Positions 26,277-31,685 of a DNA stretch of 64,000 nucleotides are shown here, piece after piece (the stretch's first letter is position 1; each line of letters begins with the position of its first letter). The notes beneath the pieces were generated by a model. The model did not search any database, was not told the DNA's origin, and was given only the letters and a program-made list of their open reading frames with translations. The translations under genes and the position numbers were made by a program. This stretch comes from Caulobacterales bacterium (lineage in GTDB: Bacteria; Pseudomonadota; Alphaproteobacteria; Caulobacterales; Caulobacteraceae): the NCBI GenBank assembly GCA_016183935.1, contig JACPDR010000046.1, forward strand, positions 1 through 64,000, given 5' to 3'.

Positions 26277-26573
26277 GCCCGGCCACACGCTACGGGATCG
26301 ACGAGGCGGCCATGGGTCGTATGGGGCCCGGCGCGATCAAGGTCTCGACTCCCAGGGCGCTGACGCACGGGGCGGTCGGCGGCAGCGCCGGGGAGGGCGC
26401 GGCGGATAGTCGTTGCGGTTGCGCGTACACAGCCGCGCCATGAGCGCCTCGACGCGACAGGACGCGCAGGGCCGCCCGGGACCTGTCCGCGGCATGACGT
26501 GGATCAAGGCCGGATCAACCCGCCGGCCTTAGGCCATACGAACACGTCGCGCATCGTGGCGCCGGGGAAATCC
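26277..26573. other. Intergenic region before the nucleotide-salvage operon
   Basis: No gene is supportable in these 297 bases. Apart from the degenerate FixK-type box at 26494 I see only GC-rich sequence without clear hairpins. Confidence 0.4.
26494..26507 (+). promoter_or_regulatory. Degenerate FixK/FNR box upstream of the AMP-phosphorylase-like gene
   Basis: ATGACGTGGATCAA has one mismatch in the first base. It lies 66 bases before the start at 26574. Confidence 0.45.
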
Positions 26574-28106
26574 ATGTCGAAACCAGGCCAGACAGTGTCG
26601 GCGCCGGTTCTGCCCACCTTGACGGCGAGGCGGCTTGGATTGCTGTCGCAGCACGACGCCATCGTGCTGATGCGCGAGGACAGCCCGGTGTGCCGGTCAG
26701 AAGGTCATGCGCCCCGTTCGCAAGTCCTGCTCAGGGCGGGGGGGCGGGAGGTCACGGCGATGCTCTACCAACTCGCTGGCGGCCATCTCGTGCGGGCGCA
26801 CGAGGCCGGCCTCTCCGAGGCGGCCTGGGAGCGGCTCGGCGTCGCGGACGGCGACGAGATCCAGGTGCGTCATCCGCCGGCGCTCGGCTCCATGTCCAGC
26901 GTTCGCAGGCGCGTGTACGGCAGACGTCTCGACGCCGGCGCCATGATGGAGATCGTCGCCGATGTCGCCGCTGGCCGCTACACCGATGCTCACCTGTCGG
27001 CCTTCCTCACCGCCTGCTCGACCCTGCCCCTGGATCGGGACGAGGTGCTCCACCTGACCCGGGCCATGGTGCAGGTCGGTGAGCGGCTCACATGGGATTC
27101 GCCGGTCGTCATCGACAAACACTCGGTCGGCGGCCTACCGGGGAACCGCACCTCGCCCATTGTCGTCGCCATCGTGGCGGCGAACGGTCTGCTCATTCCG
27201 AAAACCTCGTCCCGGGCCATCACTTCGCCGGCTGGCACCGCGGACACGATGGAGACGCTGACCCGGGTCGATCTGGACCTCGCCGCCCTGCGGCGGGTGG
27301 TGGAACAGGAGGGAGGATGCCTCGCCTGGGGCGGGGCGGTTCGGCTGAGCCCCGCCGACGATGTGCTGATCCGGGTCGAACGGGTGCTGGATCTCGACAG
27401 CGAGGGACAACTCGCCGCTTCGGTGCTGTCGAAGAAGATCGCCGCCGGATCCACGCACGTGGTTCTCGACATTCCGGTGGGCCCCACGGCCAAGGTCCGG
27501 TCCCGGGACGACGCCGACGCCCTTGCGGACACCCTCGCCGAGGTGGCGCGGCTGTGCGGCCTGGAGGTGCGGTGCGTTCGAACGGACGGCGGCCAGCCGG
27601 TCGGCCGCGGCATCGGCCCCGCCCTGGAGGCCCGGGACGTCCTGGCTGTGCTCCGCGGCGCGCCGAACGCGCCGGCGGACCTGCGCCGGCGGTCCTGCCT
27701 GCTCGCCGGCGTCGCGCTGGAGCTTGCTGGCCGTTGCGGCGCGGGGGAAGGGGCCGCGCTGGCGGACCAGACGCTCGCCAGCGGCCTGGCCTGGAGCAAG
27801 TTTCAGCGGATCTGCGAAGCCCAGGGCGGCTTGCGGGAGCCGCCGTCCTCCACCGCGAGCCGGCCGGTTCTGGCGGCTCGCGCGGGCCGGGTCACCGCGA
27901 TGAACAACCGCACCCTGGCGCGTCTCGCCAAGCTCGCCGGCGCCCCGGACAACAAGGCGGCCGGGGTCGAGCTGCACGTGCGGCTCGGCGCCGAGGTCGC
28001 CGCGGGCGAGCCTTTGTTGACGGTTCACGCCGAGGCCCCGGGCGAGCTCGCCTACGCCCTGGACTACGCCGCCGCCAATACCGACATGCTGACGATCGAG
28101 GCGTGA
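26574..28106 (+). CDS. AMP phosphorylase-like (thymidine phosphorylase family)
   Basis: A 510-residue protein, longer than E. coli DeoA (about 440) and close to archaeal AMP phosphorylase (about 500). An N-terminal extra domain (residues 1-110) precedes the phosphorylase fold. The phosphate-binding motif is DKHSVGGLPGNRTSPI (181-196), which has the G-x-P-G-N form of AMP phosphorylases rather than the GGVGDK form of DeoA. Further blocks are LLIPKTSSRAITSPAGTADTMETL (cited in part) and AGRVTAMNNRTLARLAKLAGAP. The inferred reaction is phosphorolysis of AMP (or another NMP) to ribose 1,5-bisphosphate plus base. It heads an operon with the PRPP-synthetase-like and P-type ATPase genes. Confidence 0.82.
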   Translation: MSKPGQTVSAPVLPTLTARRLGLLSQHDAIVLMREDSPVCRSEGHAPRSQVLLRAGGREVTAMLYQLAGGHLVRAHEAGLSEAAWERLGVADGDEIQVRHPPALGSMSSVRRRVYGRRLDAGAMMEIVADVAAGRYTDAHLSAFLTACSTLPLDRDEVLHLTRAMVQVGERLTWDSPVVIDKHSVGGLPGNRTSPIVVAIVAANGLLIPKTSSRAITSPAGTADTMETLTRVDLDLAALRRVVEQEGGCLAWGGAVRLSPADDVLIRVERVLDLDSEGQLAASVLSKKIAAGSTHVVLDIPVGPTAKVRSRDDADALADTLAEVARLCGLEVRCVRTDGGQPVGRGIGPALEARDVLAVLRGAPNAPADLRRRSCLLAGVALELAGRCGAGEGAALADQTLASGLAWSKFQRICEAQGGLREPPSSTASRPVLAARAGRVTAMNNRTLARLAKLAGAPDNKAAGVELHVRLGAEVAAGEPLLTVHAEAPGELAYALDYAAANTDMLTIEA

Positions 28107-28984: not shown

Positions 28985-31685
28985 ATGCCGAGCACCTGAC
29001 CGGACTGACTTCGGCCGAGGCGTCGCAGCGGCTCAAGAGGTTCGGTCCCAATGAAATCTCCGCCGGCGGCGGTCGCTCGCTCGGGCGGATCGTCCTTGAG
29101 ACCCTGCGCGAGCCGATGTTCCTGCTCCTGATCGGGGCGGCGGTCCTCTATCTGTTTCTCGGCGATCTCGCCGAGGGGATATTCCTGGTCGGCGGCGCCG
29201 CGGCCGCGATCGGGCTGGTGATCTTCCAGGAGGCGCGCAGCGAGCGCGCCGTCGCGGCCCTGCGCGACCTGGCGCAGCCGCACGCTCGCGTGCTGCGCGA
29301 CGGCGTCGAAGCGCAGATTTCGGCACGAGACCTGGCCCCCGGCGACATCCTGCTGGTGGGCGAGGGTGAGCGGCTTCCCGCCGATGGCGTTCTGGTGGCC
29401 GGCGATGTGCTCAGCGTCGATGAGTCGACCCTGACCGGCGAATCGGCTCCCGTATCCCGGCAACCCGCCGCCGAAATGCCGGATCTGGCGGCGGAGCCCG
29501 TCCCCGGCGCGCCGGGACTGGCCCGTTCCTGTTCGGCGGCGCCCTCGTGGTCCGCGGCCAGGGCGTCGTGCAGGTGACCCGCACCGGGGCGGCCTCGGCC
29601 TTGGGGCGCATCGGCCGCTCGCTGGCGACCATCGGCCATGAGCCGACCCCTCTGCAGAAGACGGCCGGGCGGCTGGTAGGCATCCTGGGCCTCGTGGCGC
29701 TCGCGTTCTGCGGACTGGTGGCGGTCGCCTACGGGCTGATGCGCGACGACTGGATCGGCGGGGCGCTGGCGGGGATCACGGTGGCGATTTCCCTCGTTCC
29801 CGAAGAGTTCCCGATGGTGCTGGCGGTGTTCCTGGCGCTGGGGGCCTGGCGGCTCGCCAACCACCAGGTCCTCGCCCGCCGCAGCGCGGTCATCGAGACT
29901 CTCGGCGGCGCCACTGTGCTCTGCGTCGACAAGACCGGCACCCTCACCGAGAACCGCATGGAGGTCGCCCGGGTCTGGGCCGCCGGAGAAGACTTCGTGA
30001 TCGGGGGTGATCAGCCGCCGAGCGGGGCGGCGGCGGATATTCTCCACTGGGCCGCCCTCGCTTCCGCGGTCCGCCCCGTGGATCCGATGGACCGGGCGGT
30101 GCGGGCCCTGTGCCGCGCAGACGCCCGCGACAAGGCGCTGGTCGACCGTGAGCCCGAGCGAGCCTGGCCATTGAGGCCGGAGCTGATGGCCGTGGTCCAG
30201 CTCTGGCGCCTGCCCGGCGAGGCGCGTCTGGCCGCCGCCAAGGGCGCGCCCGAGGCCGTCTTCCGGCTTTGCCGCCTGTCAGAGACGGAAATCTGTGACC
30301 TTCAGGCCGTCATCGAGCGCTATGCGGGCCTGGGTCTGCGGGTGCTTGGCGTGGCGTCCGCGCGGTCCGAGGCCGGCTTCGCCGAGGAGCCCCAGGACGT
30401 CGCGTTCGAGTTCCGGGGCCTGGTCGGATTCATCGATCCTCTGAGAGCCGATGTTCCGGCGGCGCTGGCGGAGGCGCGCGACGCCGGCGTCAGGGTGTTG
30501 ATGATCACCGGCGATCATCCGGCGACCGCCCTGGCCGTCGCTCGCGCCGCCGGGATCGACGCCGAGGCCGGCGTGCTGTTGGGGGCGGAGCTGGAGACGC
30601 TCTCGTTCGAAACGCTCCGCGAGCGGCTCAGGCGCGTCCGGATCTTCGCTCGCATCCTGCCCGAACAGAAGCTGCGCATCGTGCGGGCCCTGAAGGCCGA
30701 CGGCGAGGTGGTGGCGATGACGGGGGACGGCGTCAACGACGCGCCCGCGCTGGAGGCGGCCCACATCGGGGTGGCCATGGGGCGCAGGGGAACCGACGTC
30801 GCCCGGGAGGCCGCCGACCTGGTGCTGCTCGACGACAGCTTTGCGTCCATCGTCGGCGGCGTGCGGCTCGGGCGCCGCATCTTCGCCAATCTGCGCAGGG
30901 CGCTCACCTACATCACCGCCGTCCATGTGCCGATCGCCGGCCTCGCTCTCGGTCCCATCCTGCTTGGATTGCCGCCGCTGTTGTTTCCCATGCACGTGGT
31001 GCTCCTGGAACTGGTGATCGACCCGACCTGTTCTCTCGTCTTCGAGGCCGAACCCAGCGAAGAGGGCGCCATGAAGCGCCCGCCGCGGCGCCCGGACGAG
31101 CCCCTCTTCGGGCCGGCGCAGATCGTGGTCGCTCTCCTGCAGGGCGCGGGCGTGCTGGTCGGCGTCTTCGGTCTCTACTGGTGGGCGCTCACCGCCTTTC
31201 CCGGCGCGGAACCCGCGGCGCGTGGCGCGGCCTTCCTCGCGCTCGTCGTCGGCAATCTCGCATTGGCTCTCGCGGGCTCCGCGTCGTCCGGTCGTCTGTT
31301 CGCCCCGCACCGCCGCATCTACTGGATCATCGTGGCGGCGGTGGTGGTGGTGTTGACATCCATCATGACCGTCGCGCCCATCGCCCTCCTGTTCGATGTC
31401 GCCCCGCCGTCGGGCGACCTGCTGCTGCTGGCCCTGTCGACGGGGGTCGTGAGCGGGGGTTGGATGGGTATGGCGGCGCTCGTCCGCCACGGCGTCCGGA
31501 AGGCGGCTCGCGACGGCGTTCGAAATCCGGCGGCGTCCTCTGACCGGATCCGGGGAGGGACGCCAGGCCAGGATCCGCGCCAGGCCGTGGCGGGGGCGGA
31601 GGCGAGGCCTCGTTCTATCGAAACGCCGTCCCCGGCCGCACGCCCAGGCGCCGGAACAGCATGGCGGCCGGGCAGAAGCCGGTGA
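28981..31685 (+). pseudogene. Cation-transporting P-type ATPase with internal frameshift
   Basis: Two overlapping frames together make one P2-type ATPase of about 900 residues. The first, 28981-29577, has the N-terminal domain, the first membrane pair and the A-domain motif TLTGES. The second, open through 29547-31685, has VPEEFPM in membrane helix 4, the phosphorylation site CVDKTGTLTEN, MTGDGVNDAPAL and the C-terminal membrane helices. The conserved reading jumps from frame 1 (...PGAPGLAR) to frame 0 (FLFGGALVVRGQG) at about 29524-29530, a -1 shift. It is a real mutation, an assembly error, or an unusual recoding; no slippery heptamer is visible. If whole it would pump Ca2+, Mn2+ or a similar ion. 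It is third in a FixK-linked operon. Confidence 0.82.

Follow-up and report, generated by a model that had tools for sequence, protein, structure and literature searches.

We analysed a stretch of 64,000 nucleotides from a Caulobacterales bacterium (GenBank assembly GCA_016183935.1, contig JACPDR010000046.1, positions 1 to 64,000 of the forward strand; the whole stretch is called the window below), focusing on two neighbouring genes that encode an AMP- or, more generally, nucleoside 5'-monophosphate (NMP) phosphorylase-like protein and a homologue of phosphoribosyl pyrophosphate (PRPP) synthetase (PRPS). The two-gene pair is confirmed in the window, with 2 bases between the genes. Our favoured, still tentative reading is that it forms a low-oxygen module which recycles nucleotide ribose via ribose 1,5-bisphosphate (R15P), the latter being consumed by the PRPS-like enzyme. 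The nucleotides that would feed the module are probably RNA-derived.

The pair was followed in a phylum survey of 200 sampled genomes (possibly incomplete, with profile cut-offs set per family) and in 105 loci, i.e., 25 profile-picked and 80 named ones. For the named loci, the 80 top-ranking of at least 582 matches were taken; the search patterns behind them contain GPDxES. A 58-sequence alignment of the PRPS-like family holds 57 of the 80 named loci and the window protein. Fisher tests given below ignore relatedness among genomes. Among the matches listed, Phenylobacterium and Brevundimonas provide some of the closest homologues (60-64%).

The phosphorylase gene and its two signatures are located as follows.

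26574-28106, + strand: AMP/NMP-phosphorylase-like protein, NCBIfam name 'thymidine phosphorylase' (structure alignment, motifs, profiles)
27114-27158, + strand: phosphorylase signature DKHSVGGLPGNRTSP, with Ser where 24/25 loci have Cys
27201-27245, + strand: phosphorylase signature KTSSRAITSPAGTAD (motif comparison with canonical phosphorylases and 4ga5)

The open reading frame ends at 28106 and starts at GTG 26499 or, likelier, at ATG 26574. Residues 31-509 align with residues 17-492 of the Thermococcus AMP phosphorylase 4ga5 (E 5.6e-100), the N-terminal part included. This alignment and the motifs bear out the archaeal AMP/NMP-phosphorylase type with long N-terminal part that the initial annotation had proposed. 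That is, H[SC]xGGxPGN[KR]T and KTSSRAITS are found in both the window protein and 4ga5, and motifs of this archaeal kind occur in 25/25 pair loci (with the variants PAN in L077 and KSSS in L067), while the canonical thymidine/pyrimidine phosphorylases of the phylum show DKHSxGGVGDxxS and MISGRxLGHTGGT instead (6/6). In the first signature, the window phosphorylase has DKHS and the other 24 loci have DKHC. The scores of two wider NCBIfam groups are above their cut-offs (NF003338 with 668 bits vs 434, TIGR02645 with 582 vs 434.6), and those of the thymidine phosphorylase equivalogs stay below (TIGR02643 with 149 vs 570.7 bits, PRK05820 with 201 vs 269). Given motifs and profile scores, we reject an identity as thymidine/uridine phosphorylase; judged from the signatures, NMP specificity is likely. 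Two Brevundimonas genomes (G200 and G201, those of L095 and L096) each carry two full-length copies of the phosphorylase.

The second gene of the pair shows the following features.

28109-28984, + strand: PRPP-synthetase-like protein (PRK07199 family), the genome's second PRPS-type gene (NF005537, 380 bits, cut-off 322)
28388-28390, + strand: Ala94 codon, at the basic-residue position after RQD (alignment)
28595-28621, + strand: altered pyrophosphate (PP) loop GPDAESEQW (alignment with family and canonical enzymes)
28751-28777, + strand: ribose 5-phosphate (R5P) loop DDIGSSRRT with genome-specific Arg at residue 221 (alignment)

NCBIfam names the protein ribose-phosphate diphosphokinase, and PRK00934, which we take to be the model of archaeal class III PRPP synthetases, scores higher (209 bits) than the bacterial PRK01259 (114 bits). 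Its AlphaFold2 model predicts the full PRPS fold (predicted local distance difference test score, pLDDT, 92), and the three best structural matches of this model are all archaeal PRPP synthetases (Z 29.9-31.9, identity 25-28%, whole chain). A normal Prs with normal loops is encoded elsewhere in the genome (G000:C40).

The change that marks the family lies in the PP loop, which presumably holds the diphosphate in PRPS structures. The loop reads GPDxE[SA]xxW in 25/25 profile-picked loci vs SPDxGG in 7/7 canonical enzymes (own Prs included), and the window protein lacks the PDxG[GA] that is expected of a PRPP synthetase. We base this statement on the 25 profile-picked loci, since the patterns used for the named loci contained GPDxES. 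In the R5P loop, by contrast, the family departs little from the norm (DD[IVM]xS[ST][GA]xT). The initial annotation had taken the DDIGSSR stretch as the meaningful alteration; this loop is indeed present, but among the 58 aligned sequences residue 221 is G in 39, A in 18 and R in 1, i.e., in the window protein only, such that DDIGSSRRT was rejected as a family hallmark. At position 94, the 58 family sequences show K (29), R (15) or A (5), among other residues, and canonical enzymes R in 7/7. The basic residue that follows RQD (R99 in E. coli, K99 in human) is thus kept in 44/58 of the family and lost in the window protein. For human PRS1, activity of the K99A variant is reported as undetectable (PMC4363470).

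Much of the remaining active site is preserved. Residues F33, D35, H124, D165, D215, D216 and T223 are invariant in 58/58 sequences, and the canonical enzymes carry the same residues (F, D, H, D, D, D, T) at the aligned positions; the matching residues of E. coli PRPS (F35, D37, H131, D170, D220, D221, T228) bind ADP, Mg and R5P (PMC9232217). K188 and R190 are invariant in the same alignment and match the archaeal K-x-R. Class I enzymes can be aligned only ambiguously in this region, which includes Lys194/Arg196 of the catalytic flexible loop of human PRS1, described as essential (PMC4363470).

Both families exceed their cut-offs in 24/200 phylum genomes, and these are the same 24 for both, which supports the functional connection between them that had been presumed from the window alone. 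The genes are adjacent in 24/25 pairs with gaps of -4 to 55 bases, including 4-base overlaps in 12 and 1-base overlaps in 3 pairs (starts as chosen here). All 24 pair genomes show at least two PRPS-type matches, i.e., the PRPS-like gene is an additional one; given this and the genome's own Prs with normal loops, housekeeping PRPP synthesis is presumably covered by another Prs. A phosphorylase is also found near the PRPS-like gene in 73/80 named loci (within 400 bases in 55 of these). Five of the seven named loci without a nearby phosphorylase were searched genome-wide (L093 and L163 left out), and four encode one elsewhere; the L153 genome holds a distant phosphorylase only. Bacteroidota loci with both genes together are found as well (e.g., L133, L141, L148).

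These data bear on a first alternative, namely that the protein makes PRPP in the ordinary way but is regulated differently, the role of the phosphorylase being no more than AMP removal or base recycling. The retention of most ATP, R5P and Mg residues, the whole-chain match of the predicted fold to PRPP synthetases and the NCBIfam name all fit this explanation. We still consider it unlikely, given the PP-loop change in 25/25 loci, the linkage to the phosphorylase in the same 24/200 genomes despite another PRPS-type match in each, and the Ala that replaces the basic residue after RQD in the window protein.

We also searched for known enzymes that use R15P. R15P isomerase is over cut-off in 0/24 pair genomes; weak matches below cut-off are found in 15/24, probably methylthioribose-1-phosphate isomerases, and none in the source genome. 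A hidden R15P isomerase elsewhere was thus rejected, all matches in the 24 pair genomes being under cut-off. PhnN, the ribose 1,5-bisphosphate phosphokinase, is over cut-off in 4/24 pair genomes. The source genome yields a sole weak PhnN match below cut-off, probably guanylate kinase, and we rejected PhnN for it. RuBisCO is found in 14/24 pair genomes and is not over cut-off in the source genome (2.93 Mb, 95% complete). That is, the lack of RuBisCO and R15P isomerase noted initially holds for the source genome at the given cut-offs, and PhnN is missing there, too. Since all three enzymes known to act on R15P or on its product are missing from this genome at these cut-offs, the PRPS-like protein becomes the candidate.

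One way to use R15P was part of the initial annotation, i.e., a route from AMP via R15P to PRPP. Here, the PRPS fold would act as an R15P kinase (R15P + ATP -> PRPP + ADP), and nucleotides would be rebuilt from base and PRPP. Such chemistry is done by PhnN in E. coli (PMC9700705). The scarcity of PhnN in the pair genomes (only 4/24) and the tie of the PRPS-type gene to the phosphorylase gene are in line with this route. It would, however, require transfer of the gamma-phosphate, unlike the attack on the beta-phosphorus in PRPS; in addition, the changed part is the PP loop, i.e., the holder of the diphosphate, and the neighbouring genes appear catabolic (see below). We keep from this route the NMP-phosphorylase type of its first enzyme, while its PRPP product is doubtful and the neighbours suggest ribose breakdown; as a whole, we judge it improbable, to about the same degree as the ordinary synthetase.

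In the phosphoryl exchange that we favour instead, the phosphorylase would first split 5'-NMP with phosphate (Pi) into free base and R15P, as its signature suggests. The PRPS-like enzyme would then consume R15P with no isomerase involved, by a possibly reversible exchange at C1 (R15P + AMP or ADP -> R5P + ADP or ATP, respectively). In PRPP synthetases, the C1 hydroxyl of R5P attacks the beta-phosphorus of ATP. If ADP replaced ATP in the same geometry, the products would be R15P and AMP; reversed, R15P + AMP would give R5P + ADP. One phosphate instead of two would be moved at C1, which we propose because the adenine nucleotide, Mg and R5P residues are mostly kept but the Gly-Gly of the PP loop is lost. 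No gamma-phosphate site would be needed, which would account for the changed PP loop. For E. coli PRPS, joint occupation of the active site by ADP and R5P has been observed (PMC9232217). R5P is probably the product of the PRPS-like enzyme and PRPP less likely so. R5P would feed into the pentose phosphate pathway or, in loci with the respective neighbours, into a phosphoketolase/acetate kinase route. Taken as a whole, we give the low-oxygen module with this C1-phosphoryl exchange somewhat less than an even chance, and rank it above both PRPP formation from R15P and ATP and an ordinary PRPP synthetase.

With regard to oxygen, the window encodes regulators upstream of the pair and a candidate binding site in front of it.

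22796-23395, - strand: FixJ response regulator (275 bits, cut-off 255)
23388-24905, - strand: FixL-like sensor kinase (536 bits, below the 850 cut-off)
24919-25557, - strand: FixK-like CRP/FNR regulator (best NCBIfam match FixK, 204 bits, below the 300 cut-off)
26494-26507, + strand: FixK/FNR-type box ATGACGTGGATCAA (2 mismatches to TTGATNNNNATCAA; weak alone)

The box starts at -80 from ATG 26574, close to the position of the Bradyrhizobium box given below, and ends 66 bases before it. FNR/FixK-type boxes are enriched in the window, both for at most two mismatches (20 vs 4.8 expected) and for at most one (7 vs 0.41 expected), and 0/100 shuffles reach either count. Low-oxygen control, which had been part of the initial annotation, is supported by data from Bradyrhizobium diazoefficiens, where the orthologues bll3117-bll3116-bll3115 are FixK2-dependent and their proteins induced under microoxia (PMC9104804, PMC6515984). 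Without FixK2, bll3117 is down 6.6-fold and bll3115 30.6-fold (PMC9104804). The Bradyrhizobium box ATGATCTGGGTCAA is tabulated at -74 (PMC9104804), and locus L066 shows the identical box ATGATCTGGGTCAA at -74. Table 2 of PMC6515984, which covers the top 66 microoxia-changed proteins, contains all three, each with a positive value; its column for direct FixK2 targets gives '-' for bll3117-3115, while PMC9104804 lists a predicted box. The same FixK2-dependent list contains a phosphoketolase-acetate kinase operon (bll2518-2517; PMC9104804). The initial statement that such a low-oxygen pathway is undescribed is thus to be narrowed: the genes are already in print as members of a microoxic regulon, while the parts of these papers that treat them propose no pathway.

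Most boxes of the window fall into positions 9660-39442, including the three perfect ones (11927, 14626, 33191), and some genes in this range resemble universal stress proteins by eye; the range is perhaps a low-oxygen gene island. The perfect box at 33191 lies between a gene on the - strand (31815-33128), whose protein weakly matches sulfide:quinone reductase (94.5 vs 525 bits), and an opposite-strand gene for a resistance-nodulation-division (RND)-type adaptor (33285).

Two further features of the window recur next to the pair in other loci.

17921-19534, + strand: metallo-beta-lactamase (MBL)-fold beta-CASP RNase-like protein, 7 kb upstream of the pair
28981-31685, + strand: cation-transporting P-type ATPase (Ca/cation type), in two frames (28981-29577 and 29547-31685)

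The beta-CASP RNase-like gene is present in 68/105 loci (next to the pair in 65/67 of the cluster count) and, at the genome level, in 14/24 pair genomes vs 23/176 others (p 2.9e-6). A phosphoketolase or a divergent phosphoketolase-like protein occurs in 36/105 loci, acetate kinase in 12, a fusion with phosphate acetyltransferase (PTA) in 5 and D-2-hydroxyacid dehydrogenase in 15. Type II (archaeal-type) glyceraldehyde-3-phosphate dehydrogenase (GAPDH) is found in 17/105 loci, all among the 80 named ones (e.g., L145:14515-15570); as this type is uncommon across the phylum, finding it near the pair in 17/80 named loci is notable. These recurrent neighbours (RNase-like, phosphoketolase-type, acetate kinase, PTA, GAPDH, D-2-hydroxyacid dehydrogenase) point to ribose breakdown more than to PRPP-driven salvage.

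At E 0.001, phosphoketolase is found in 8/24 pair genomes vs 25/176 others (p 0.035); being present in 8/24 only and missing from the source genome, it was rejected as an obligatory partner. The divergent phosphoketolase-like protein (~790 aa; L098:4731-7097 and relatives) reaches at best 145 bits vs a 962-bit cut-off and is under all phosphoketolase cut-offs. Its cluster covers 31/105 loci, of which L072, at least, encodes a phosphoketolase of the ordinary kind.

The two proposed enzymes could also run in reverse, i.e., R5P + ADP -> R15P + AMP followed by R15P + base -> NMP + Pi, which would provide a PRPP-free salvage of bases. This biosynthetic direction needs nothing beyond the same two enzymes, but RNase-like, phosphoketolase, acetate kinase and GAPDH neighbours suit breakdown better, such that we rate it as very improbable. 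A far-reaching extension of the breakdown reading is that oxygen-short bacteria burn RNA for energy: the beta-CASP RNase would provide NMPs, which would be turned into R15P without ATP cost, and the re-purposed PRPP synthetase (R15P + AMP -> R5P + ADP) would conserve the C1 phosphate bond in a new type of substrate-level phosphorylation. In the clusters with more genes, phosphoketolase, acetate kinase, GAPDH and D-2-hydroxyacid (perhaps lactate) dehydrogenase would round this off to a ribose fermentation in redox balance. We regard this scenario as speculative and rather unlikely.

The ATPase gene begins with an ATG that shares bases with the stop codon of the PRPS-like gene, and its two frames meet near 29.5 kb, which reflects either a genuine frameshift or a fault in the assembly. 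P-type ATPases of mixed types, counted as one cluster, occur in 47/105 loci. Gene order around the pair is nearly identical in six loci (L136, L145, L146, L147, L149, L160), and neighbour counts are thus not independent. The records of these six are named Burkholderiales, Pseudomonas, Pigmentiphaga, Hydrogenophaga and Achromobacter; their near-identity suggests recent cluster mobility or shared contamination.

Several observations weigh against a low-oxygen module with C1-phosphoryl exchange. No enzymatic activity of any family member is known to us. The phosphorylase reaches 479 bits for the AMP_phos equivalog TIGR03327 and thus stays under its cut-off of 535; since TIGR02645 and NF003338 are passed, we label it AMP/NMP-phosphorylase-like. 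For the PRPS-like protein, the retention of most PRPS catalytic residues in the family makes a normal reaction possible, and the combination of Ala94 and Arg221 may indicate that the window copy is weakened or altered beyond its family. The energetics of making ADP or ATP with the phosphate of R15P are slightly unfavourable, such that the step would have to be pulled by the use of R5P. Furthermore, a comparison across loci shows no enrichment of boxes in front of the operon (23/95 vs 138/646 heads, p 0.51), although this test is weak as its gene starts are rough and it missed the window's own box. With regard to the neighbours, six of the 17 type II GAPDH loci are near copies of one cluster, and type II GAPDH is over cut-off in 0/24 pair genomes (0/200 phylum genomes), such that it was rejected as a general partner. 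The catabolic context is weaker in the source genome than in relatives, because phosphoketolase and type II GAPDH are both missing and the RNase-like gene is 7 kb off. Finally, a 2026 preprint takes the PRPP reaction as preserved in new prokaryotic PRPS classes (PMC13252144), of which it defines many bacterial ones.

The pair occurs in 24/200 genomes of the phylum, and the NCBIfam names of its proteins, i.e., thymidine phosphorylase and PRPP synthetase, may well both be wrong. If the favoured reading is true, a bacterial branch would be added to the pentose bisphosphate pathways, a microoxia-induced FixK2-dependent operon would gain a function, and a PRPP synthetase would have evolved toward another phosphoryl transfer. 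In the portions of the open-licence PMC literature that were covered, we found no function assigned to the pair.

Compared with known enzymes, the second protein shares the whole predicted fold and most ATP, Mg and R5P residues with archaeal class III PRPP synthetases (1u9y, 3lpn, 3mbi), from which it differs by GPDxE[SA]xxW in place of PDxG[GA] in the PP loop and by an identity of only 25-28%. With PhnN it would share R15P as the proposed substrate, while its fold family is another one, PhnN having a P-loop kinase fold. The Bradyrhizobium operon bll3117-bll3116-bll3115 shows, by annotation, the same gene pair together with an MBL protein, and the order phosphorylase, PRPS-like, beta-CASP is shared by L065, L066 and L075, all three from one family; in the published accounts, as far as they cover these genes, it appears as a set of regulated genes with no function given (PMC9104804, PMC6515984).

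Among the closest known systems is the archaeal NMP shunt, i.e., the pentose bisphosphate pathway with NMP phosphorylase (TK0352), R15P isomerase (TK0185) and RuBisCO (TK2290) in Thermococcus (PMC9700705). The same source notes that NMP-shunt genes were reported in some bacteria from metagenomes. Its first enzyme is homologous at length to the window phosphorylase, with N-terminal part and signature motifs in common, while here the isomerase is found in 0/24 pair genomes, RuBisCO is missing from the source genome, and a PRPS-like protein of another fold comes second. The haloarchaeal non-carboxylating pentose bisphosphate pathway (PMC9700705) likewise leads nucleotide ribose through R15P to a fate without RuBisCO, but it depends on R15P isomerase and has nucleosides as its starting point; for the pair, the isomerase was not found and NMPs would be the entry compounds. 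The pair could thus represent, with a probability that we place a little under one half, a variant of the archaeal NMP shunt that works without isomerase and, in the source genome, without RuBisCO, its second enzyme carrying out the reaction proposed above.

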